From assembly GCA_040752395.1 (NCBI GenBank), contig JBFMHD010000086.1, forward strand, positions 1-10,695: 10,695 nt of DNA, given 5' to 3'. Position numbers and translations under genes: made by a program. The notes beneath the pieces were generated by a model. That model did no database searches, had not been told where the DNA came from, and saw nothing but the letters and a program-made list of their open reading frames with translations. Positions 1 through 10,674 of this stretch are shown in pieces (position 1 is the stretch's first letter; each line of letters begins with the position of its first letter). Origin of the DNA: JBFMHD01 sp040752395 [NCBI: Candidatus Hydrogenedentota bacterium]. Lineage in GTDB: Bacteria > JBFMHD01.

Positions 1-168
1 GTCCTGATACCTCTCACTTCTTCCGTTATCTTGCTTATTGCCTCTTGCTTCTTTCGTTATCTTTCTTTCCGTTATCTTGCTTCTTTCGTTATCTTTCTTT
101 TCCGTTATCTTGCTTCTTGCTTCTACTTGATATTATTATAGTTACAAAGTTTTTCAGAGGAGGTCTTT
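1..168 (+). repeat. purA leader, copy A of a duplicated leader sequence
   Basis: This leader is a longer version of the one in front of serC (2831-2919). The first 23 bases match 2831-2853. The last 69 bases (100-168) align without gaps to 2851-2919 with only five differences (139, 148, 161, 165, 168). Copy A is longer by exactly 79 bases, which is the expansion of a tandem array between the shared ends. The shared part includes the Shine-Dalgarno site (GAGGAGGT, 157-164), so two unrelated genes carry the same translation-start region. The + strand is strongly pyrimidine-rich. The AT-rich stretch at 129-149 could hold a promoter (TATTAT at 131-136), but no convincing -35/-10 pair stands out. 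The repeat may extend left of the window. Confidence 0.85.
24..111 (+). repeat. Five-copy CGTTATCTT tandem array in the purA leader
   Basis: The 9-mer CGTTATCTT occurs at 24-32, 55-63, 70-78, 87-95 and 103-111, with steps of 31, 15, 17 and 16 bases. The copies alternate between a TTCCGTTATCTTGCTT form and a TTTCGTTATCTTTCT form. The serC leader has a single copy (2854-2862). The array is almost pure T/C on this strand and looks like slippage or recombination growth of a 15-17 bp unit. Whether it binds a protein is unknown. Confidence 0.85.
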
Positions 169-1383
169 GTGCCAGCAACACTAATCGTAGGTATCCAGTG
201 GGGTGATGAGGGTAAGGGGAAGATAACAGACCTGTTGGCTGATAAATATGATTGCGTTGTAAGATATCAGGGCGGCGATAACGCGGGACATACCGTTGTT
301 AAATTAGGTAAAAAATTCAAACTTCATTTTGTACCATCAGGAATCCTCTTCAAAAATAAACTCGCTGTTATGGGAAACGGGATGGTTGTGAACCTTATCT
401 CACTTGTGAAAGAATTGGATGAACTGAAGAACAATGGTATTGATATTCGTTATTTAAGAATATCTGACAGGGCCTTTACTATCTTACCCGTACATATTAA
501 TGAAGATAAATTAAAGGAGGATGGTTCTTTTTCTATAGGGACAACAGTGAAAGGTATTGGCCCTGCATATAAGGACAAAATAAATCGAACAGGTATACGA
601 ATCGGTGATTTCTTTGAGCCTGATATTGAAAAAAGACTCTTAAACAGAGAATTAAACAATAGTGAGATTAAAGAACAGTTATCCTGTTTTAATAAAGTCA
701 AAGATTATGTCTGCGATACTGTAACTTTATTAAATGATATGCATAAAAAGGGTGGAAAAATATTGCTTGAGGGTGCTCAAGCCACGATGCTTGATATTGA
801 TTTTGGTACGTATCCTTATGTTACGAGTTCTTCACCCTCAGCTGGCGGCGCCTGTACAGGAACAGGACTCCCACCATCTTCGATAAAGAAAATTATAGGT
901 ATTTCAAAAGCTTATACAACCCGAGTCGGTAAAGGGCCATTCCCAACTGAACTCACTGATAAATTGGGAGATCTAATAAGAGAAAAAGGTGTTGAATATG
1001 GAACAACTACAGGGAGACCGAGACGCTGCGGCTGGCTCGATCTCGTTGCGCTCAGATATGCTATAAATGTTTGCGGTGTTACCGCAATCGCTATTATGAA
1101 GCTTGATGTCTTATCAGGACTTCATGAGATTAAAGTGGCTGTAGGATATGTATTACATAATAAGAAACTAAAATGTTTTCCATCGAGAATATCTGCAATC
1201 AAAGAAGTAAAGGTTGAATATAAGACTTTTAAAGGGTGGGAGACCGATATAAAAGGTATAAGAAAATTAAAAGATTTACCGATACAAGCACAGAGATACA
1301 TAAGATTTATTGAAAAAGAAATTGGTATCCCTGTAAAATATATTTCTACCTCACCGGATAGAAAGGACACGATAATAAGATGA
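169..1383 (+). CDS. purA: Adenylosuccinate synthetase (PurA)
   Basis: It catalyses the GTP-dependent joining of IMP and aspartate to adenylosuccinate, the first committed step to AMP, in the cytosol. The N-terminal motif WGDEGKGK (residues 11-18) and GGDNAGHTV (36-43) place the catalytic Asp13 and His41 at the same numbers as in E. coli PurA. GTTVKGIGPAYKDK, the GAQATMLDIDFGTYP block, GPFPTEL and TTTGRPRRCGWLD are further family signatures. At 404 residues it is about 25 shorter than the usual bacterial enzyme. The missing part appears to lie in the variable region after FFEPDIEKRLLNRE and no catalytic motif is lost. The start is GTG, supported by GAGGAGGT five bases upstream of the codon and by the conserved N-terminus. 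Its stop overlaps the start of the transporter gene by 4 nt, so the two are probably translationally coupled. Confidence 0.97.
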   Translation: MPATLIVGIQWGDEGKGKITDLLADKYDCVVRYQGGDNAGHTVVKLGKKFKLHFVPSGILFKNKLAVMGNGMVVNLISLVKELDELKNNGIDIRYLRISDRAFTILPVHINEDKLKEDGSFSIGTTVKGIGPAYKDKINRTGIRIGDFFEPDIEKRLLNRELNNSEIKEQLSCFNKVKDYVCDTVTLLNDMHKKGGKILLEGAQATMLDIDFGTYPYVTSSSPSAGGACTGTGLPPSSIKKIIGISKAYTTRVGKGPFPTELTDKLGDLIREKGVEYGTTTGRPRRCGWLDLVALRYAINVCGVTAIAIMKLDVLSGLHEIKVAVGYVLHNKKLKCFPSRISAIKEVKVEYKTFKGWETDIKGIRKLKDLPIQAQRYIRFIEKEIGIPVKYISTSPDRKDTIIR

Positions 1384-2618
1384 ATCTACCATTATGGTCA
1401 GTGCTACCTTTTGTGGCACTGCTTTTAAGTATAGCGATATTGCCGTTAGCTGTACCACATTTCTGGGAACCAAACAAAAACAAGGCGATAATATCATGTA
1501 TATTTGGGTTACCGGTTGGTATATATTTTATATTCGCAAATCCGCGTTATCTTATGCATATTGAACACGAATATTTTTCGTTTATTGTTTTATTGGGAAC
1601 GTTGTTTATTATTTCAGGTGGTATATTCTTAAGAGGTGATATTCAAGCCACACCAATAAATAATTCTATTTTTTTACTTATCGGCTCTATACTTGCATCA
1701 TTTATCGGTACCACAGGTGCTGCTATGCTTCTTATTAGAGCCGTACTTAATATAAACAAGCAAAGAAAACATATCTGTCATACTGTAATATTTTTTATTT
1801 TTTGTGTTGCCAATATAGGTGGTTGTTTAACACCTTTAGGTGATCCGCCGCTTTTTCTTGGATATCTAAAAGGAGTACCTTTTTCCTGGACATTTCAATT
1901 ATTACCCGAATGGTTGTTTATGAACGTTATATTGATAGTTTTATATTTTATAATAGATGCTATAATGATTAAGAGAGAGCGCAAGAAGGACTTACTGAGA
2001 GATGAAATGACAATAGAGCCGATAAGAGTGATAGGCGGTATTAATTTTATTTTTTTACTCGGTGTCATTCTCACTGTTGCATTTATTCCTATGACACCCT
2101 GGCGTGAATTAATTATGTTTTTATTAGTAGGGTTATCTTTAAAGCTTTCTTCCCGGGAAGCAAGAACAGCAAACAAATTTACTTTTAGTCCTATAATAGA
2201 GGTAGCGGTATTATTTTTCGGTATTTTTTTAGCGATGATGCCCGCGCTTGTTATTTTAAGTGAGCGTGGTGCATCGCTTGGGCTGATGAGTCCTGCCCAA
2301 TTTTTTTGGTGCACCGGCTCTCTTTCTTCTTTCTTAGACAACGCACCAACTTATGCTGTATTCTTTGAACTCGCAAAAGCTGTTGGTGGCGGTGTCGGTG
2401 AATTGGTTGCCGGGGTACCAGAAGAACTCTTGAGAGCGATCTCCATAGGTGCAGTATTTATGGGAGCTAATACTTACATAGGTAATGGACCCAATTTTAT
2501 GGTTAAAGCGATCAGCGAAGAAGCAGGCGTTAAGATGCCGAGTTTCTTTGGATATATGCTCTGGTCAGGCTGTATTTTGATCCCGTTATTTGTAGTTGTA
2601 ACTTTTATCTTTTTCTGA
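1380..2618 (+). CDS. Ion/carboxylate transporter, CitMHS_2-like (IT superfamily)
   Basis: This 412-residue integral membrane protein has about 11-12 hydrophobic segments (roughly residues 2-23, 35-54, 65-85, 97-120, 133-150, 175-195, 217-236, 241-255, 270-292, 310-330, 353-375 and 392-412). Two repeated signature regions are typical of the ion transporter superfamily (NhaD, ArsB, CitM). The first half has GTTGAAMLLIR (110-120) followed by CLTPLGDPPLFLG (149-161). The second half has SSFLDNAPTY (316-325) followed by GANTYIGNGPNFM (362-374). These suggest two re-entrant loops forming the transport site. Relatives are annotated either as sodium:proton antiporters or as putative citrate transporters, and the sequence does not decide the substrate. 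It starts within the ATGA overlap at the end of purA. A metabolic link to purine synthesis is not obvious. No terminator with a clear U-tract follows directly. Confidence 0.85.
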   Translation: MNLPLWSVLPFVALLLSIAILPLAVPHFWEPNKNKAIISCIFGLPVGIYFIFANPRYLMHIEHEYFSFIVLLGTLFIISGGIFLRGDIQATPINNSIFLLIGSILASFIGTTGAAMLLIRAVLNINKQRKHICHTVIFFIFCVANIGGCLTPLGDPPLFLGYLKGVPFSWTFQLLPEWLFMNVILIVLYFIIDAIMIKRERKKDLLRDEMTIEPIRVIGGINFIFLLGVILTVAFIPMTPWRELIMFLLVGLSLKLSSREARTANKFTFSPIIEVAVLFFGIFLAMMPALVILSERGASLGLMSPAQFFWCTGSLSSFLDNAPTYAVFFELAKAVGGGVGELVAGVPEELLRAISIGAVFMGANTYIGNGPNFMVKAISEEAGVKMPSFFGYMLWSGCILIPLFVVVTFIFF

Positions 2619-2710
2619 TACTCTTACTTCCTACTTTCAAAGGCACAAAGGATATTAAGGGATTGGTCATAGGTGATGGGGTATATTAGGGGGCGGCGGT
2701 TAGCTTAGGG
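2619..2710. other. Non-coding, G-rich start of the transporter-serC gap
   Basis: No gene is visible here. The left end holds two 7-bp units, TACTTCC (2625-2631) and TACTTTC (2632-2638), that resemble the repeat units further along. The right part is G-rich on the + strand, with G runs at 2659-2661, 2678-2681, 2689-2693 and 2708-2711 separated by 16, 7 and 14 bases. These loops are long for a stable G-quadruplex. Confidence 0.5.
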
Positions 2711-2776
2711 GTCGTGAGTCGAGAGTCGTGAGTCAAAACAGGACTCGAGACTCAAGACTCAAGACTCAAGACTTTT
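2711..2776 (+). repeat. Heptamer inverted repeat forming an imperfect hairpin
   Basis: The left arm (2711-2734) is built of 7-bp units GTCGTGA, GTCGAGA, GTCGTGA and a final GTC. A 7-base spacer (2735-2741) follows. The right arm (2742-2776) consists of GACTCGA, three copies of GACTCAA, and GACTTTT. The arms are opposed: each GAGTC core pairs with a GACTC core, giving blocks of mostly 5 bp separated by two-base mismatches. The right arm is one or two units longer and ends in TTTT (2773-2776). It could weakly terminate transcription from the purA-transporter unit, but the stem is interrupted and the U-run is short. Confidence 0.75.
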
Positions 2777-2802
2777 CAGCAGGCCCCGGGCTTTTGGCTC
2801 CA

Positions 2803-2837
2803 GCCGGCTGTAGTCCGTAGCCTGTAGCCCGTCCTGA
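2803..2837 (+). repeat. Second 7-bp repeat series (GTAGCCC type)
   Basis: Directly tandem 7-bp units run GCCGGCT (2803-2809), GTAGTCC (2810-2816), GTAGCCT (2817-2823), GTAGCCC (2824-2830) and GTCCTGA (2831-2837). The last unit is also the first seven bases of the duplicated leader, so the series runs straight into it. The 8-bp palindrome AGCCGGCT lies at 2802-2809. It encodes no protein that I can see. Confidence 0.65.
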
Positions 2838-2919
2838 TACCTCTCACTTCTTCCGTTATCTTGCTTCTTGCTTCTACTTGATATTATTAGAGTTACAATG
2901 TTTTTCAGAGGGGGTTTTA
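2831..2919 (+). repeat. serC leader, copy B of the duplicated leader
   Basis: This is the short form of the leader in front of purA. It matches 1-23 and then 100-168 of the window, with one CGTTATCTT copy (2854-2862) instead of five. Two tandem TTGCTTC units (2861-2867, 2868-2874) precede the AT-rich part, as in copy A. Possible promoter elements are TTGCTT (2868-2873) and TACAAT (2894-2899), but their 20-bp spacing is poor. The copy ends at the serC ribosome-binding site. Confidence 0.85.
2907..2914 (+). promoter_or_regulatory. serC ribosome-binding site fixing the ATG start
   Basis: AGAGGGGG lies 8 bases before ATG 2923. The reading frame is open further upstream to a TTG at 2878, but that codon lies inside the duplicated leader and has no Shine-Dalgarno site. 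This site therefore sets the start at 2923. It is the equivalent of 156-163 in front of purA. Confidence 0.8.
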
Positions 2920-2922
2920 TCT

Positions 2923-4017
2923 ATGTACGGACGAGTTTATAATTTTAATCCAGGACCAGCAGTACTACCAGAAAGTGTTCTTGAAAAGGCGAGAGACGAG
3001 ATGATGAATTATAAAGGAACAGGAATCTCTGTTATGGAGATGAGCCATCGGTCTAAAGAATTTGAGGAAATCATTCAGAATGCAGAGGCTTCTGTAAGAA
3101 GAATTATGAATGTTCCTGATAATTACGATATTTTATTTCTGCAGGGTGGTGCAAGTCTACAGTTTGCTATGGTTCCTATGAATCTTTATATTGATGGCAA
3201 ACCGGTAGATGTTATTCATACAGGTGCATGGACTAAAAAAGCGATTGGCGAACTAAAAAGGATAACCCAATACAGCTTAGCCTGGGATGGTGAACCGCTA
3301 AAATTCAGTCATATACCAACACAAGAAGAATTAAAACTCGAGAAAAACGCTTCATACGTCCATATATGTTCAAATAATACGATTTTTGGAACACAATGGC
3401 GAGAATTTCCTGCTACAGGTGAGGTTCCATTAGTCGCTGATATGTCATCTGATATTATGTCCCGCGTGATAGATGTTTCTTTATTCGGGCTTATTTTTGC
3501 AGGCGTTCAGAAGAATGTGGGGTCAGCCGGGGCTACACTTGTTATTATAAGAAAGGATTTAGTAGATAGATGTAAAGACAGCGTTTCTGTAATACTTCAA
3601 TATAAAACACATATCAAAGAGAAGTCTTTATATCATACACCCCCTTGCTATGCGATTTATATTTCAGGACTTGTTTTGGGATGGATTGAGAAGCAGGGGG
3701 GACTCAGCGCCATAGAAAAAATAAATGAAGAAAAAGCAAGGATACTTTACGATGCCATAGATAGCAGCGATTTTTATTATGCAACAATAAAAGACAAAGA
3801 ATCACGTTCAAGAATGAATGTGAATTACAGAATCAAAGGCAATAACGAAGAATTAGAAGACCGATTCGTCAAAGAGGCAAAGAAGAACGGGCTTGTTGGA
3901 TTAAAGGGGCACAGGTCAGTTGGCGGGTTACGTGCTTCCTTATATAATGCTTTATCTATAGATGGTGTTAAAACATTAGTTGAATTTATGAATGAGTTTG
4001 CTAAAAAGAATGGTTGA
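2923..4017 (+). CDS. serC: Phosphoserine aminotransferase (SerC)
   Basis: This PLP-dependent class V aminotransferase converts 3-phosphohydroxypyruvate and glutamate to phosphoserine and 2-oxoglutarate in serine synthesis. In many bacteria it also acts in the vitamin B6 pathway. From ATG 2923 it is 364 residues, the normal family length. The N-terminus YNFNPGPAVLP (6-16), EMSHRSKEFEEI (39-50), the phosphate/PLP-binding LQGGASLQF (73-81), GAWTKKA (101-107), VADMSSD (171-177) and the Schiff-base lysine in AGVQKNVG (Lys197) are all present. The C-terminal substrate-binding block GLKGHRSVGGLRASLYNA is intact. No serA or serB lies nearby, so the partner genes are elsewhere. The leader is shared with purA. 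The last codons overlap the -35 element of the promoter for the next gene. Confidence 0.96.
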   Translation: MYGRVYNFNPGPAVLPESVLEKARDEMMNYKGTGISVMEMSHRSKEFEEIIQNAEASVRRIMNVPDNYDILFLQGGASLQFAMVPMNLYIDGKPVDVIHTGAWTKKAIGELKRITQYSLAWDGEPLKFSHIPTQEELKLEKNASYVHICSNNTIFGTQWREFPATGEVPLVADMSSDIMSRVIDVSLFGLIFAGVQKNVGSAGATLVIIRKDLVDRCKDSVSVILQYKTHIKEKSLYHTPPCYAIYISGLVLGWIEKQGGLSAIEKINEEKARILYDAIDSSDFYYATIKDKESRSRMNVNYRIKGNNEELEDRFVKEAKKNGLVGLKGHRSVGGLRASLYNALSIDGVKTLVEFMNEFAKKNG

Positions 4018-4042
4018 CAAAACAAAAACTTTTAAATATTAG
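4014..4042 (+). promoter_or_regulatory. Probable sigma-70-type promoter for the regulator-cimA pair
   Basis: A perfect -35 hexamer TTGACA (4014-4019) overlaps the serC stop codon (4015-4017). It is followed after exactly 17 bp by TATTAG (4037-4042), which matches the -10 consensus at four of six positions. It would start transcription near 4049, about 45 bases before the regulator start codon. It is inferred from sequence only. Confidence 0.55.
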
Positions 4043-4050
4043 CTAATTTT
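4035..4050. promoter_or_regulatory. Candidate operator palindrome over the -10 element
   Basis: ATTAGCTAAT (4038-4047) is a perfect 10-bp palindrome. With one mismatched pair (4037/4048) it extends to 4035-4050. It covers most of the -10 hexamer and the likely transcription start, where a repressor would block initiation. Autoregulation by the adjacent regulator is an inference. AT-rich palindromes of this length also arise by chance. Confidence 0.35.
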
Positions 4051-4094
4051 GTCGATGTTCGTAATAACAATGAAACAAAAAACAGGTGTATGTT

Positions 4095-4538
4095 ATGTTG
4101 GATGAAATGTATTTTCAATCCCAGGAAGTTATAAGAATAACAGGCGTATCAAATAGACAGCTTCAATACTGGGATGAAACTAATTTTATTAAACCAAGTT
4201 TTAAATCTACAAGAAGAAGGAGATATACATTAAGAGACATAGTGCTTATTAAAATATGTAAAACCATTCAAGACCATCTTGGCCTTTCTATCCAGGAATT
4301 ACGCCGAAATCTTAATAGAATAAGAGAATTGTTACCCAGAGAGGTTGTGCCGCTCGAAGACGTTGTTGTGTATACTGATGGTGAAAATATCATAGTAGCA
4401 GAGAGAGGCAGGTATTTAAATTTCAGTCTTCGACAGAATATGCTGAAATTTGATTTAGGTGAGATAATTCAGTGGGCAAAATATGTTAAAGAGAACCGGG
4501 AAGTATACACTGCTGAACAGCTAATACTTTCATTGTAG
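4095..4538 (+). CDS. MerR-like transcriptional regulator with short C-terminal domain
   Basis: This predicted DNA-binding protein has 147 residues from ATG 4095. Residues 6-45 carry a MerR-type winged helix-turn-helix: YFQSQEVIRITGVSNRQLQYW with the typical R-x-L-x-Y-W pattern (21-26) and a basic wing RRRRYT (40-45). Residues 46-80 continue the MerR-type helices (LRDIVLIKICK, LGLSIQELRRNL). The long dimerising coiled coil of classical MerR proteins is not obvious. A small region around VVYTDGENIIVAERGRYLNF (91-110) could be a ligand or dimer domain. No clustered cysteines indicate a metal sensor. The start is uncertain. AGGTG (4084-4088) sits well for ATG 4095, but GTG 4086 and ATG 4107 are alternatives. 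cimA begins 44 bases downstream, so control of cimA or of itself is plausible. The effector is unknown. Confidence 0.8.
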   Translation: MLDEMYFQSQEVIRITGVSNRQLQYWDETNFIKPSFKSTRRRRYTLRDIVLIKICKTIQDHLGLSIQELRRNLNRIRELLPREVVPLEDVVVYTDGENIIVAERGRYLNFSLRQNMLKFDLGEIIQWAKYVKENREVYTAEQLILSL

Positions 4539-4582
4539 TATTTCCTCAGAAACTCATCAACTTTTTCGAGGGAGTCATATCG

Positions 4583-6169
4583 ATGGATTCAAAAAAAATT
4601 TTTATATATGATACCACATTACGTGATGGAACACAGGCTGAAGGTATAGCATTCTCAGTTGAGGATAAGATTCGGATAACTAAAGAGCTTGATAACATAG
4701 GTATAGACTATATTGAAGGCGGCTGGCCAGGGTCAAATCCTATATCTATAGAATTTTTTAAAAGAGCCAAACATATAACTTTTAAACATTCTAAACTTGC
4801 TTCCTTTGGTTCTACACGTAAAGCAAAAACCAGTGTTAGTGATGACCCAAATATCAAAGCTATTTTAGAGGCTGATACACCGGTTGTGACTATTTTTGGT
4901 AAATCCTGGGATTTGCATGTTAAAGATGCGCTGAAAGTCGATCTACAAACTAATCTTGAGATGATTAAAGATTCGGTCTCTTATATTAAAAAGTTTAACA
5001 AAGAGGTTATCTATGATGCAGAACATTTTTTTGACGGTTATATAAACAATAAAGACTACGCAATTGCTACTTTGAAGGCTGCAAAAGAAGGTGGCGCGGA
5101 TTGTTTATGTTTATGTGAGACAAATGGTGGGAGACTATATTTTGAGGTCTTTAATATTGTAAAAGATATTAAAGCGATGTTTCCTGATATAAGGATAGGT
5201 ATCCATACACACAACGATTCAGAATTAGGTGTAGCTAATACTTTAGCAGGTGTCGAGGCCGGGGCAGAACATGTGCAGGGTACGGTAAATGGTATCGGTG
5301 AACGATGCGGAAACGCTAACCTCATCTCTATCATCGCTAATCTGGAACTAAAAATGAATTACAAATGTTTATTAGAAAATAAAATAAGAGATTTAACCTA
5401 TCTCTCGAGGTTTGTTTATGAACTGGCAAATCTTGCGCCTAATACCCGTCAGCCTTTTGTAGGGAAGAGCGCGTTTGCTCATAAAGGCGGTATCCACGTG
5501 GATGCAGTTGTTAAAAACCCACAAACCTATGAACATATTGACCCTGAACTTATTGGTAATGAGCGACGAGTACTAATCTCAGACCAATCAGGTCAAAGTA
5601 ATCTCCTATATAGAGCCGAGGAATTAGGATTACCTATAAAAAAGGGTACCCAGGAAATTAAGACTATTTTAAAAGTTCTTAAAGACAAAGAGTTTGAAGG
5701 TTATCAGTATGAAGCTGCTGAGGGTTCGTTTATTCTGCTTGTTAAAAAACTTCTTGGGTTACATAAAGACTATTTTACCCTGGTGAGTTTCAGAATAATA
5801 ATTGAAAAAGAGACAGATATAGAGGAGCCCTGTACCGCTACCGTAAAAGTAAGGGTTCACAACAAAGAAGAGCTTTCTGCCGGTGAAGGGGATGGCCCTG
5901 TTAATGCGCTTGATAACGCTTTGAGAAAAGCATTATTACCCTTTTATCCTGAACTTAAAGAGATGTCGCTTGTGGATTATAAGGTTCGTGTGCTTGAAGA
6001 GAATCGTGGTACCGCAGCAAAAGTGGTTGTTCTTATCACATCATCTGACGGCACCAGGGATTGGGGAACAATAGGTGTCGCTGAAAATATAGTTGAGGCA
6101 TCGTATATAGCGCTTGCTGATAGTTTTGAATATATGATTTATCTATACAGAGAAAAACTTGAAAGATAA
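4583..6169 (+). CDS. cimA: (R)-citramalate synthase (CimA)
   Basis: It condenses pyruvate and acetyl-CoA to citramalate, giving 2-ketobutyrate for isoleucine without threonine. The N-terminal HMGL-like TIM barrel (residues about 5-280) carries DTTLRDGTQ (10-18), metal-binding HTHND (208-212) and NGIGERCGN (236-244). A linker domain with AFAHKGGIHVDAV (297-309) is followed by a LeuA-type allosteric dimer domain (about 391-526), the site of isoleucine feedback in relatives. GGWPGSNP (46-53), the absence of an isopropylmalate-synthase-type N-terminus and the 528-residue length favour CimA over LeuA or homocitrate synthase. The start ATG is preceded by GAGGGAGT (4568-4575). It probably shares a transcript with the MerR-like gene. 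Its stop codon is 2 nt from the stop of the opposing apgM-like gene. Confidence 0.93.
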   Translation: MDSKKIFIYDTTLRDGTQAEGIAFSVEDKIRITKELDNIGIDYIEGGWPGSNPISIEFFKRAKHITFKHSKLASFGSTRKAKTSVSDDPNIKAILEADTPVVTIFGKSWDLHVKDALKVDLQTNLEMIKDSVSYIKKFNKEVIYDAEHFFDGYINNKDYAIATLKAAKEGGADCLCLCETNGGRLYFEVFNIVKDIKAMFPDIRIGIHTHNDSELGVANTLAGVEAGAEHVQGTVNGIGERCGNANLISIIANLELKMNYKCLLENKIRDLTYLSRFVYELANLAPNTRQPFVGKSAFAHKGGIHVDAVVKNPQTYEHIDPELIGNERRVLISDQSGQSNLLYRAEELGLPIKKGTQEIKTILKVLKDKEFEGYQYEAAEGSFILLVKKLLGLHKDYFTLVSFRIIIEKETDIEEPCTATVKVRVHNKEELSAGEGDGPVNALDNALRKALLPFYPELKEMSLVDYKVRVLEENRGTAAKVVVLITSSDGTRDWGTIGVAENIVEASYIALADSFEYMIYLYREKLER

Positions 6170-6171
6170 AA

Positions 6172-7329
6172 TCAACCTAATAACTTCTCAATAAGTTCCC
6201 AGCCATTGTTTATAATATTTTTAGTACGCTCTGCAGATATCTCATTAAAATTATCAACACCTTTACTCTTTTTATATGAACGATAGAGAAGATACGGTAC
6301 CATGGCTTTTGTATGAACCCTTAATCTTATCGGCGTACAGTGGTCGGGTAGAATAAGAACCTGATACTTTTTATCCTGGTTTTCAAAAAATTCGAGAATT
6401 TTACCTAAAACCTTCTTATCAATAGTTTCAATAGCCCGTATCTTCTCTTGTAGATTTCCCATATGGCTCGCTTCATCAGGCGCTTCTATATGAAGATAAA
6501 CTAAATCATAACCGGACTTGAATGCATCGATTGTATATAAAGCCTTGGCATCATAATCAGTATCAATAAAGCCAGTAGCACCAGGAACGTTTATTACATC
6601 AAACCCGGATAGAATCCCGATACCCTTTAATAAATCAACAGCTGATATAATCGCTCCTTTGATTTTAAATCTCTTTGCCTGATTAACAAATCGCGGTTTT
6701 TTACCACCGCCCCATGGCCAGAGCATATTAATCCCGGATACCTCATTACCTAATATTTCGTATGATTTAAAAATCAGTTTTAGAAGTATGTTATTCTCTT
6801 TACCGCCTCTTGGCAAAATATCTTTGATATATCGACCGACATTATCGTGTGGCGGGTACGTTATACTTTTACCATCGCCCTGTAAAATAAGTATGTTTCT
6901 ATAGGATTTACTATGTAATAGTTTGACCCCTTTTATTCCCAGATTTTTATTGAGTTTATCAATCAATATATTAGCTGTTTTATCACAGGGATGACCACCT
7001 GAATAATCTATTAATCTTAAATCTTTATCAACATTTATAAAATTTACTCTATATGCAACCTCTTTATTTTTTAAGTTATATCCAAGACTGATGCATTCAA
7101 GTGAGCCACGTGGCAACCCTTTTTTAATTTTTTGACCTATTATTGTAGCATTGGCTATCTCACTACCTGGTTTGCAATTTAACGGTATGGTTCTAACTAA
7201 TCCTACCTCACTGTTTTTCGCCAGTTTATTAAAATTTTCTGTGCGACTGACAGCGAGTGGGGTTTGATTGTTCAGATCTTCTATCTTGTAATCAGCCATC
7301 CCATCAGGAACAAGTAAAAGTGTCTTCAT
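6172..7329 (-). CDS. ApgM-like (COG3635) protein, probable homoserine kinase of the threonine operon
   Basis: This 385-residue cytosolic enzyme belongs to the alkaline-phosphatase superfamily. By sequence it is a cofactor-independent phosphoglycerate mutase of the archaeal type. Visible features are VPDGMADY (7-14, metal Asp9), PGSEIANATIIG (54-65) with Ser56 as the likely nucleophile, NMLWPWGGGKKP (201-212), EAPDEASHMG (282-291) with Asp285 and His289, and LPDH (327-330) with downstream His339. It follows thrC by 4 nt with no good Shine-Dalgarno site of its own, so it is probably coupled to thrC translation. hom and thrC lie upstream and no GHMP-type thrB is present. From memory, some proteins of this family in bacteria have been shown to act as homoserine kinases, making phosphohomoserine for ThrC. 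I infer that role here; phosphoglycerate mutase remains possible. Family certainty is high, function moderate. Confidence 0.85.
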   Translation of the reverse strand: MKTLLLVPDGMADYKIEDLNNQTPLAVSRTENFNKLAKNSEVGLVRTIPLNCKPGSEIANATIIGQKIKKGLPRGSLECISLGYNLKNKEVAYRVNFINVDKDLRLIDYSGGHPCDKTANILIDKLNKNLGIKGVKLLHSKSYRNILILQGDGKSITYPPHDNVGRYIKDILPRGGKENNILLKLIFKSYEILGNEVSGINMLWPWGGGKKPRFVNQAKRFKIKGAIISAVDLLKGIGILSGFDVINVPGATGFIDTDYDAKALYTIDAFKSGYDLVYLHIEAPDEASHMGNLQEKIRAIETIDKKVLGKILEFFENQDKKYQVLILPDHCTPIRLRVHTKAMVPYLLYRSYKKSKGVDNFNEISAERTKNIINNGWELIEKLLG

Positions 7330-7333
7330 AACT

Positions 7334-8389
7334 TTAGAAACCGAGATATCTCATAATTTCTTTAATATCGCATTCCATCTCAGGCGGCTTTGAAACCTGC
7401 TTTACTGCAAGATTTGGATCCTTTAAACCATGACCTGTTAATATACATACAATTAACTCATTATCTTTAATTTTTTTTTCTCTATGTGCTTTTAATAAAC
7501 CAGCAACACTCGCTGCTGATGCAGGTTCGCAAAATATTCCCTCGTTCATTGCAAGGAATTTATATGCCTCAAGTATCTCATCATCAGTAACCATATCAAT
7601 ATAACCATCAGATTCTTTTGCGGCAGCTACAGCTTTATCCCAGGATGCAGGGTTTCCTATCCTTATTGCAGTAGCGATAGTTTCTGGTTTATCAATTTTT
7701 CTTTTAAGAACAATAGGTGCAGACCCACTGGCCTGGTAACCGCAAAGCCGGGGCTTGTTTTTTACAACGTCTTTTTCAAAATATTCTTTATATCCAATCC
7801 AATAGGCTGTAATATTCCCTGCGTTACCAACAGGTATGAATTGTCTATCAGGTGCTCTTGAAAGCGTGTCACATATCTCAAATGCTGCTGTTTTCTGGCC
7901 TTGTAATCTATATGGGTTGAGCGAATTAACAAGCTGTAGCGGGTATTTTTCAGTAGCTTCTAAAACAATATTTAACGCTTCATCAAAATTACCTTTCAAA
8001 GCAATGACTTTAGCACCATGTATCATACTTTGAGCAAGCTTACCGAGCGCTATAGCATTACTCGGGATTATTACTATACAGAGAATACCAGCTCGTGTTG
8101 CGTATGCAGATGCTGAAGCTGATGTATTACCTGTAGAAGCACATATAACAGCTCGTTTGCCCTCTTCAACAGCTTTACTTATAGCTACTGTCATACCCCT
8201 GTCTTTAAATGAACCAGTGGGGTTTAAACCTTCATATTTTAAATATATCTCACCTTTATGAGATAATTTTTTCTCTAAACTATATGCCCTTAAAAGAGGT
8301 GTATTACCTTCAAGCAGAGTTATAACAGGCGTTTTATCATTCACAGGTAAATATTTTCTATATCTTTCTATAACACCATAGTAGCTCAT
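7334..8389 (-). CDS. thrC: Threonine synthase (ThrC)
   Basis: This PLP enzyme converts O-phosphohomoserine to threonine and phosphate. The 351-residue, short fold type II form lacks the N-terminal extension of the E. coli-like class. Key motifs are LLEGNTPLL (25-33), NPTGSFKDRGM with Schiff-base Lys62, ASTGNTSASASAYA (84-97), NPYRLQGQKTAAFEI (158-172), the PLP-phosphate loop PVGNAGN (186-192), CEPASAASVAG (287-297) and LTGHGLKDP (317-325). The start ATG has GAGGG nine bases upstream. It lies 51 bases downstream of hom and 4 bases upstream of the apgM-like gene on the same strand. Its substrate requires a homoserine kinase, which points to the neighbouring apgM-like gene. Confidence 0.96.
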   Translation of the reverse strand: MSYYGVIERYRKYLPVNDKTPVITLLEGNTPLLRAYSLEKKLSHKGEIYLKYEGLNPTGSFKDRGMTVAISKAVEEGKRAVICASTGNTSASASAYATRAGILCIVIIPSNAIALGKLAQSMIHGAKVIALKGNFDEALNIVLEATEKYPLQLVNSLNPYRLQGQKTAAFEICDTLSRAPDRQFIPVGNAGNITAYWIGYKEYFEKDVVKNKPRLCGYQASGSAPIVLKRKIDKPETIATAIRIGNPASWDKAVAAAKESDGYIDMVTDDEILEAYKFLAMNEGIFCEPASAASVAGLLKAHREKKIKDNELIVCILTGHGLKDPNLAVKQVSKPPEMECDIKEIMRYLGF

Positions 8390-8410: not shown

Positions 8411-8439
8411 ATAATAGAGGCAAGAACCAAGATAAACAA
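8411..8439 (-). promoter_or_regulatory. Weak possible internal promoter before thrC
   Basis: In the 51-base hom-thrC spacer, minus-strand TTGTTT (8439-8434) and TATTAT (8416-8411) are 17 bp apart. The -10 element is good (five of six) but the -35 matches only its first three positions. In AT-rich DNA this can be chance, and read-through from hom is the simpler view. Confidence 0.2.
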
Positions 8440-8440
8440 A

Positions 8441-9736
8441 CTATTCAAGGATTCTTATAAGCGATGATTTTGCTTTAATAATACTTAATTTATCTATCTC
8501 TTTTAGCGCTTCTTTAACCCTTCGTTCATTAGCTTTATGAGTTAATATAACAATAGGTACGCCTTTAGGATTATTCACTTCTTTTTGTATAACCGATGCT
8601 ATACTAACATCATTTATTCCGAGTATCCGTGATATTTTTGCTAAGACAAGGGGTCTATCAAGAGTGATAAATTTTAAAAAATAAGAACAATAAATATCGT
8701 CAACCGCGAACACAGCTTTTTTTATATATCTTTTCTTTATATTTTTCGGTAATTTTTCTCTATAAACGATCTTCTTTGCTAAATCAACAACATCAGCGAC
8801 AACAGCACTTGCAGCAGGATATCTTCCTGCACCTTTACCATAATAGAGTTGTTCCGAAACAGCATCGCCTTTTAAAAATATCCCATTATACTCGTCAGGG
8901 ATATTTGAGAGAGGATGATTAATTGGTACGAGAGCTGGATGAACCCTTATATCGATTTTATCAACAATGCGTTTGATAGTAGCTATGAGTTTCACACGAA
9001 ATCCCATCTCAAACGCATATTTTATATCCTGGAGCGTAATATTACTTATACCCTCTATGTAAACATCGTTAAAAGGTATAATTGATTGATAAACAAGCCC
9101 TCCTAAAAGTACAGCCTTGTGTGCAGAATCGATACCATTTATATCAAGCGATGGGTCAGCTTCAGCGAATCCGTTATTTTGAGCGAGTTTCAAAGCTTTA
9201 TCAAAATCCATCTCTTCCTTTTCCATCCTTGTTAAAATATAATTAGTTGTTCCATTTATAATGCCATAGATTTCAGTAATATCATTTGCTATCAACCCTT
9301 CTCTGATTGATTTTAGTATAGGGATGCCACCTGCAACAGATGCCTCGTATCTTATCTCGACATCATTTTTAAAAGCCAGGTCAAAGAGTTCTTCCCCACG
9401 CTCAGCTAAAAGCGCTTTATTAGCTGTAACAACGTATTTTTTATTATTTAATGCATTTGATACAATATCATAAGCGGTATCTAATCCACCTATTAATTCA
9501 ACAACAATATCACATCTTTTAGAAGCACTCTTTATATCGATTATTTTTATATTTTGAGATATATTTATTTCTTTTAATATTTTTTTATTTTTTTCACAAA
9601 CACCATAAATTCCGATCTCTAAACCAGTCTTTTCATTAATCTCTTTATTTTTATTTGTTATAAGTTCATAAACACCTCTTCCAACTGTTCCAAGCCCTAT
9701 TAGATTAATATCAACACACATCTTTTTCATATTCAA
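8441..9736 (-). CDS. hom: Homoserine dehydrogenase with ACT domain (Hom)
   Basis: It reduces aspartate semialdehyde to homoserine with NAD(P)H, at the branch to threonine and methionine. It has 431 residues, the usual length for the monofunctional enzyme. The Rossmann motif is GLGTVGRG (14-21) and TANKALLA (104-111) carries a conserved lysine. The catalytic domain contains NGTTNYILTRM (161-171) and GIDSAHK (201-207) with the catalytic Asp/Lys pair. Residues about 347-431 form an ACT domain, the usual site of threonine inhibition. No aspartokinase domain is fused, and lysC and asd are not in the window. The gene starts 11 bases after the PfkB gene stop. I chose TTG 9736 because AGGAG (9746-9742) is five bases upstream of it. 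ATG 9730, two codons in, is nearly as likely. Confidence 0.95.
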   Translation of the reverse strand: MNMKKMCVDINLIGLGTVGRGVYELITNKNKEINEKTGLEIGIYGVCEKNKKILKEINISQNIKIIDIKSASKRCDIVVELIGGLDTAYDIVSNALNNKKYVVTANKALLAERGEELFDLAFKNDVEIRYEASVAGGIPILKSIREGLIANDITEIYGIINGTTNYILTRMEKEEMDFDKALKLAQNNGFAEADPSLDINGIDSAHKAVLLGGLVYQSIIPFNDVYIEGISNITLQDIKYAFEMGFRVKLIATIKRIVDKIDIRVHPALVPINHPLSNIPDEYNGIFLKGDAVSEQLYYGKGAGRYPAASAVVADVVDLAKKIVYREKLPKNIKKRYIKKAVFAVDDIYCSYFLKFITLDRPLVLAKISRILGINDVSIASVIQKEVNNPKGVPIVILTHKANERRVKEALKEIDKLSIIKAKSSLIRILE

Positions 9737-9747: not shown

Positions 9748-10674
9748 TTACAATGCTATCCTTTGTTTCAACATTCTAAATCTATTCTCTATCTCTTTTT
9801 TTGTTATATTATAGAGTTTAAAAATGCTAAAATCTTCAATATTATAAGAGGCAGTGACAGTGCCATAAGCAAGTGCCCGAGCCATAGATTTTTTATCAAG
9901 CCCTAAATCTTTACTTGCGAGATAACCCATTATACCGCCAGCAAAACTGTCCCCTGCACCCGTTGGGTCTTTTACCTCTTTAGTTAAAAATGCGGGCAGA
10001 TTGATGAAAAACTCTCTGCTCATAGCATCTACACCATAACAACCCTTTTTTACTATCACAACCTTTGGCCCTAAATTAAGTAATTTCTCCATAGCTTCAA
10101 GATAATTTATACTCTTTTTTTGTACTGACTCTTCCAAAAACATATATAGCTCAGCTTCATTTAATATCACGCCATCAACCACCTTAAATAATTCAACCAG
10201 TACATCCTTTTTACTTTTAATCCAGTAATTCATCGTATCGCAGATAACAATCTTCGGTTTCTCTATCTGGTTCAATACATCTACCTGTAATTGTGGGTCT
10301 ATATTGGCTAAAAAAAGGTATGTTGTATCTTTATGAATATCCTTTAGAATCGGTTTAAAATTCTGGAATGCGTTAAGTTCTGTGCATTCAGATATAGCTT
10401 CATTCATATCGCCTTCATATCTACCTTTCCAGAAGAATGTTTTTTCTCCTTTTTTGATTTCGACACCTTGATAGTCTATTCTTCTTTTCTCCAATCGTTT
10501 CAAAAAATTAAGATCAAAATCATCACCGACTACACCTATCATATATACTGGCGTAAATAAAGAAGCAGATACAGAAAAATATATAGCAGACCCGCCGAAC
10601 CTGCGTTCCAGTTTACCAAAAGGCGTCTCGACTGTATCATACGCAATAGAACCTACTACTGTAAGTTTACCCAT
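9748..10674 (-). CDS. PfkB-family sugar/nucleoside kinase, substrate unknown
   Basis: This 308-residue ribokinase-fold kinase should transfer ATP phosphate to a sugar, nucleoside or related hydroxyl. The N-terminus GSIAYDTVETPFGK (8-21) with RRFGGSAIYFSVSAS (24-38) and IGVVGDDF (46-53) is the substrate-lid region. LANIDPQLQ (122-130) and CDTMNYWI (145-152) fit a conserved, widely distributed but unassigned PfkB subgroup that I recognise. The second PfkB signature DPTGAGDSFAGG (236-247) supplies the anion hole and catalytic Asp242. The start ATG has CGGAG seven bases upstream, and only 21 bases beyond the start are visible. It is the first visible gene of the threonine operon and lies 11 bases before hom. 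A role in threonine or methionine-related salvage is conceivable, but the substrate cannot be read from the sequence. Confidence 0.88.
   Translation of the reverse strand: MGKLTVVGSIAYDTVETPFGKLERRFGGSAIYFSVSASLFTPVYMIGVVGDDFDLNFLKRLEKRRIDYQGVEIKKGEKTFFWKGRYEGDMNEAISECTELNAFQNFKPILKDIHKDTTYLFLANIDPQLQVDVLNQIEKPKIVICDTMNYWIKSKKDVLVELFKVVDGVILNEAELYMFLEESVQKKSINYLEAMEKLLNLGPKVVIVKKGCYGVDAMSREFFINLPAFLTKEVKDPTGAGDSFAGGIMGYLASKDLGLDKKSMARALAYGTVTASYNIEDFSIFKLYNITKKEIENRFRMLKQRIAL

Follow-up and report, generated by a model that had tools for sequence, protein, structure and literature searches.

The genes purA and serC of a Candidatus Hydrogenedentota bacterium (contig JBFMHD010000086.1) are preceded by one and the same leader, designated here copy A upstream of purA and copy B upstream of serC, and it is certain for practical purposes that both leaders descend from one copy. 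The window, i.e. the whole stretch of DNA analysed, comprises 10,695 nucleotides (nt) with a G+C content of 36% and nine recognised genes (Table 1). With a probability of roughly one half, the leader was copied as a module within this chromosome region by ectopic recombination or gene conversion via tracts of a 7-nt repeat, in such a way that the unit formed by purA and the adjacent transporter gene would have ended up with the same set of start signals as serC, a situation that can be called promoter reuse.

Regarding the likeness of the two leaders, positions 100-167 and 2851-2918 are identical at 64 out of 68 bases, and one extra base (T168 vs. A2919) leads to the 69 bases with five differences given in the preliminary description of this DNA, a count which is reproduced here; besides, the segments 1-45 and 2831-2875 are 96% identical. 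Considering the E values obtained by blastn inside the window, both for the 68-nt match (1e-26 to 2e-26) and for its non-repetitive 44-nt half alone (5e-14), this likeness is not due to chance. Excluding a single 79-nt indel, 84 out of 88 bases agree between the copies, and the four mismatches (A139/B2890, A148/B2899, A161/B2912 and A165/B2916) are all located in the 3' half. As the gap sits between two copies of the direct repeat TTCCGTTATCTTGCTT, it has 17 equivalent placements, and copies A and B can therefore be related to each other by one event of the slippage or recombination type. The homology stops short of the start codons, by 1 nt for purA (GTG at 169) and by 4 nt for serC (ATG at 2923), and the coding sequences downstream, encoding PurA and phosphoserine aminotransferase respectively, are unrelated; the alignment together with these protein identities bears out the initial proposal of a single upstream module standing before genes of two pathways. 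The shared 5' end had also been placed at base 1, where the match does begin, but only because the window begins there, so that base 1 is not necessarily the point where the module itself starts. The location of copy A right at the window edge could evoke an assembly artefact at the contig end, which is hardly credible considering that the copies differ by four substitutions and 79 nt and that each of them is continuous with its own gene.

The module associates a pyrimidine-rich left half, built on the heptamer TCTTGCT, with a unique right half of 44 nt, or core, ending in a Shine-Dalgarno sequence, AGAGGAGG lying 5 nt from the GTG of purA and AGAGGGGG 8 nt from the ATG of serC. The substitutions amount to 4/44 in the unique half and 0/44 in the heptamer half. 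Since the left half is rich in repeats and the sole length difference between the copies lies between two 16-nt direct repeats, this half is the likely recombination seam. In the proposed scenario, unstable heptamer tracts would seed ectopic recombination or gene conversion and the copying of the leader module would have gone through these tracts, while a transcription start signal would reside in the 44-nt half, where both cores retain a TATTAT stretch; the outcome would be a similar basal expression of both units rather than a regulated co-expression. Elsewhere in the window, a search with the core retrieved nothing better than E 0.51. The promoter has to be considered as putative rather than demonstrated because neither leader yielded a promoter-like site in a consensus scan, which returned 18 sites for 1-4600 vs. 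15.0 +/- 3.5 in shuffled sequences. The leaders folded no better than their own shuffles (z of +1.6 and +1.4) and the Rfam scan of the window gave no match at E up to 1, as expected of a plain start region; a riboswitch or an attenuator was rejected accordingly. A leader peptide was discarded too, as copy A lacks an ATG throughout 1-168 and the one at 2898 in copy B is out of frame with serC. As for a transposon end or a miniature inverted-repeat transposable element, the ends of copy B pair at 3 out of 20 positions and no flanking target duplication was seen, bearing in mind that the actual left boundary could be located farther upstream; with neither terminal inverted repeat nor target duplication, the module thus carries no mark of a transposon.

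A common leader could also be maintained by selection for the shared regulation of purA and serC, through one operator or RNA signal. The two pathways are linked, purA leading to the synthesis of adenosine monophosphate and serC to serine, from which the glycine and the one-carbon units used for purines derive, and both the Shine-Dalgarno sequence and the TATTAT stretch are kept in the two leaders. Yet an identity running over the tract, the spacer and the ribosome-binding site looks like recent descent rather than like a conserved site, the purA core contains no dyad and the serC core a single weak one, the weak folding and the lack of an RNA family match do not speak for an RNA signal, and the sequences upstream of serC (up to 250 nt) in 50 distant relatives contain no core match below E 0.1. 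The common operator initially envisaged is not supported, since an operator would not require the identity to extend over the spacer and the ribosome-binding site, as it does here, and selected co-regulation as a whole appears quite unlikely.

Coming back to copying through the heptamer tracts, Tandem Repeats Finder (TRF) detected a total of six period-7 arrays, with four different units, in the regions 1-168 and 2711-2875. The periodicity was assessed from runs of at least 10 matches at lags 4-12, taken separately in spacers and in coding sequences and compared with 5000 shuffles. Lag-7 runs span 29 nt of 2619-2922 (0/5000 shuffles as high) and 10 nt of 1-168 (11/5000), with 0 nt in these two regions at lags 4-6 and 8-12, and no run at any lag from 4 to 12 was present in the 10,028 coding nt or in three other spacers. 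At minimum score, TRF also reported two 15-nt period-7 rows within the transporter gene (1789-1803 and 2321-2335). The arrays are made of tandem 7-nt units and are found mainly between genes, as are the heptamer repeats named short tandemly repeated repetitive (STRR) sequences in cyanobacteria. The GTCGTGA and GACTCAA arrays form a strong hairpin (2709-2768) between the transporter gene and serC (-34.6 kcal/mol, z -5.3, matched by 0/200 shuffles), where a terminator scan indicated a site on the minus strand only (2763-2744).

The pyrimidine half is present a third time, in a diverged form, before thrC. When copy A was scored against upstream regions of 80 nt for six other genes, pfkB, which is located at the window edge and preceded there by 21 nt, being left out, thrC reached 32 and the five others 12-14; none of 3000 shuffled upstream regions (500 for each of the six) attained this score and the best value elsewhere in the window was 23. 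As the thrC copy comprises the pyrimidine tract without the 44-nt core, it is the tract and not the core that occurs a third time. This bears on two further explanations, which are partly compatible with each other and with selected co-regulation. On the one hand, the leader could be a mobile promoter dispersed genome-wide, the whole module including the start region being multi-copy before unrelated genes and still spreading. The presence within 10.7 kb of two copies ahead of unrelated genes, the diverged copy at thrC with its outlying score and a window edge falling within a copy would all fit; such a spread is nonetheless unlikely, as the thrC copy has no core and the core is absent both from an exact scan of IMG/VR (0 matches) and from seven heptamer-bearing genomes searched with up to 3 mismatches (0/7). 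On the other hand, the tract could act upstream of the Shine-Dalgarno sequence as a translational enhancer, likewise at thrC, by binding the ribosomal protein S1 or another RNA-binding protein of this kind. At all three genes (purA, serC and thrC) the tract is sense-oriented, the leader is weakly folded, and S1, Csp or Csr were proposed for TAACTGA heptamers before start codons (MacGregor 2015, PMC4679880); however, 44 and 47 nt separate the end of the tract from the start codons, and a Shine-Dalgarno sequence is present, unlike with TAACTGA, which makes an enhancer distinctly improbable. As to the earlier idea of a spreading regulatory repeat, it holds for the heptamer half, dispersed with a copy at thrC and arrays in two other phyla, whereas for the whole module only two copies are seen in the window, with a core found nowhere else in the searches. 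A recent local duplication, considered from the outset, stays likely for the 44-nt core.

Mobile promoters and promoter propagation, reportedly described by Matus-Garcia et al. in 2012 and van Passel et al. in 2014 (as cited in PMC8049555 and PMC9208149), are said to involve near-identical upstream sequences before non-homologous genes in one genome. The leaders of purA and serC are alike in that near-identical sequence is indeed found upstream of non-homologous genes, and differ in that there are two copies in the window and the promoter function is putative. Intergenic heptamer repeats were described in Xanthomonas, including inverted heptamer pairs with potential stem-loops, and in Nostoc (PMC4692102), as well as in Geobacter metallireducens (PMC2700814); such repeats and STRR sequences share with the window short, largely intergenic arrays of 7-nt units, but differ by their unit sequences, and one array is fused here to a copied start region. 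In Beggiatoaceae, most TAACTGA arrays stop no more than several nt short of the start codon, and only 15 (about 10%) of the repeat-bearing intergenic regions also have a Shine-Dalgarno sequence (PMC4679880). While heptamer arrays are sense-oriented upstream of functionally unrelated genes in both cases, those of the window end 44-47 nt upstream and are followed by a Shine-Dalgarno sequence, which sets them apart from the TAACTGA type.

Outside the window, the heptamer half and the core behaved differently. The 17-mer TCTTGCTTCTTGCTTCT was found in 2 out of 294 sampled Planctomycetota genomes (6 matches) and in 5 out of 198 sampled Elusimicrobiota genomes (21 sites), the reversed control giving 0 in both phyla; in the latter, G344 had 16 matches at 10 sites and G350 8 matches at 6 sites. 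It was also retrieved in 30 stretches of IMG/VR, a number obtained with no chance control, several of which look coding and some of which are mutual copies judging by their flanks. By contrast, leader pieces of 25 and 20 bases had 0 matches in IMG/VR, a leader 25-mer with 2 mismatches was absent from five genomes (0/5), and the core against 151 loci yielded a best E of 0.028. Comparison of the leaders with the first 80 loci gave nothing below E 0.018. Against 119 loci, the best among the matches listed for copy A was an IMG/VR stretch (L109; 73% over 106 nt, E 1e-9), explained by its long pure heptamer array. In the planctomycetal genome G263, copy A had four matches (best E 0.001), three of them including the heptamer part. 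Upstream of serC in the 50 distant relatives, the tract matched low-complexity sequence only (best E 0.005, L016), and lag-7 runs were present in 4/50 relatives vs. 0 or 1/50 at lags 4-6 and 8-12, the carriers of these period-7 runs being L009, L010, L011 and L050 (Gallionella/Nitrosomonadales). Among phages, copy A matched two Aeromonas phages at E 0.5 over 128-163; among plasmids, region 2619-2925 gave Nostoc at E 0.08 (over 2711-2773) and Halomonas at E 0.9.

Some of these loci deserve a separate mention. In L082 (G251, Planctomycetota), the array lies amid several other 7-nt units (TCGCTTC, CGACACC and others), as in the window. L097, a look-alike of the leader by eye, was rejected as it sits inside a long reading frame. 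In G263, the same spacer is found at two contig starts, head to head (L081 1-207 vs. L083 213-1, 94% over 214 columns), with differing numbers of TTGCTTC units; it was not retained as a parallel to copies A and B because such head-to-head contig starts may be one locus split between abutting contigs.

With respect to Elusimicrobiota, three TTCTTGC units make 21 nt, and every sense frame therefore reads as a cyclic FLLLASC and every antisense frame as EARSKKQ. Of the 21 TCTTGCTTCTTGCTTCT sites, 20 in G344, G350, G419, G347 and G359 (L128-L147) were examined by eye, the contig C212 of G359 being left out. At 11 sites (L128, L130, L131, L135, L138-L143 and L147), the array lies, in sense orientation, at the N-terminal end of a long frame, where it resembles a signal peptide or a membrane anchor; six others (L129, L132, L134, L136, L137 and L146) are antisense inserts of EARSKKQ type in or at the start of frames, while one encodes an internal hydrophobic stretch (L133) and one is a frame consisting of the array (L144). 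At the remaining site (L145), the array stands directly before a Shine-Dalgarno sequence of its own and the putative ATG of a thioredoxin gene, and is also open in frame; it is a likely leader and would as such parallel the association of an array with a start region. From the Pfam scan of ten frames, eight were matched, namely three PorV-like, one TPR and thioredoxin, as well as a DegT-type aminotransferase, an S-adenosylhomocysteine hydrolase and a histidine kinase for the antisense hosts, and two had no match. A literature search, judged by title, retrieved no paper on heptamer-encoded FLLLASC N-termini. As FLLLASC and EARSKKQ are read in every frame, the arrays can land almost anywhere without bringing in a stop codon. 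TTCTTGC-type arrays could even be imagined as a frame-neutral genomic parasite or raw material crossing phyla, which would seed recombination copying start regions, as for purA and serC, and supply ready-made signal peptides whose LASC resembles a lipobox, but so broad a role is doubtful and rather improbable.

The features of the window are collected in Table 1. In the AT-rich region 4018-4094 upstream of the MerR-type gene, a palindrome-like stretch read by eye, AATATTAGCTAATTTT, is a candidate autoregulation site of this gene. A SerC search of genome contigs gave 50 loci with a top identity of 56%, and a second gene of the window was near serC in L001 only, namely purA (40%) at about 2 kb. 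Compared with samples of five phyla, partly with matches at E 1e-180 or better only, CimA was at most 57% identical to its full-length matches, while one partial match reached 58% (G307, 207 amino acids); against 340 genomes of the phylum of G004, four matches at E 1e-190 or better showed 53-56% identity.

Table 1. Location of the leader copies, repeats and genes in the window.
Feature	Position	Strand	Remark
Leader copy A, upstream of purA	1-168	+	5' end cut by window edge
Leader copy B, upstream of serC	2831-2922	+	homology 2831-2918
44-nt unique core, copy A	124-167	+	Shine-Dalgarno AGAGGAGG; 40/44 identical to copy B core
44-nt unique core, copy B	2875-2918	+	Shine-Dalgarno AGAGGGGG
Left direct repeat TTCCGTTATCTTGCTT (16 nt)	21-36	+	bounds 79-nt indel
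Right direct repeat TTCCGTTATCTTGCTT (16 nt)	100-115	+	bounds 79-nt indel
32-nt tandem unit	43-118	+	2.3 copies, 97% matches; copy A only
Period-7 array TCTTGCT	29-53	+	77% matches; copy A
Period-7 array TCTTGCT	108-124	+	copy A
Period-7 array TCTTGCT	2859-2875	+	copy B
Period-7 array GTCGTGA	2711-2734	+	left arm of strong hairpin
Period-7 array GACTCAA	2742-2773	+	right arm of hairpin
Period-7 array CTGTAGC	2808-2829	+	ends 1 nt before copy B
Diverged third copy of pyrimidine half, TTATCTTGGTTCTTGCCTCTA	8415-8435	-	sense to thrC, 25 nt before thrC ATG
purA	169-1383	+	GTG start; PurA
CitMHS_2 transporter gene	1380-2618	+	overlaps purA 3' end
serC	2923-4017	+	phosphoserine aminotransferase; ATG start chosen; mechanical open reading frame list starts at TTG 2878
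MerR-type regulator gene	4095-4538	+	
cimA, citramalate synthase	4583-6169	+	
apgM-type phosphoglycerate mutase gene	6172-7329	-	
thrC	7334-8389	-	
Homoserine dehydrogenase gene	8441-9736	-	
PfkB kinase gene	9748-10674	-	

Several points weigh against the copying of the leader through its heptamer tracts as the origin of common start signals. All four substitutions are located in the half called functional, the numbers being small, and the promoter reading of this 44-nt half is weak. The array of L145, open in frame with the thioredoxin gene, may be an N-terminal extension rather than a leader. Furthermore, the count of two copies covers the 10.7-kb window only, and the start of the window inside copy A could also result from the assembly breaking at a repeat that has further copies.

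If copying via the heptamer tracts is nonetheless what happened, two housekeeping genes would owe the start region they share to copying instead of point mutation, and a simple 7-nt repeat would probably have served as the seam. Such a case of promoter reuse would be small and clean, and would not call for a regulatory element of a new kind. Attention would then turn to heptamer arrays, from which new leaders might arise and, in some Elusimicrobiota, N-termini resembling signal peptides.
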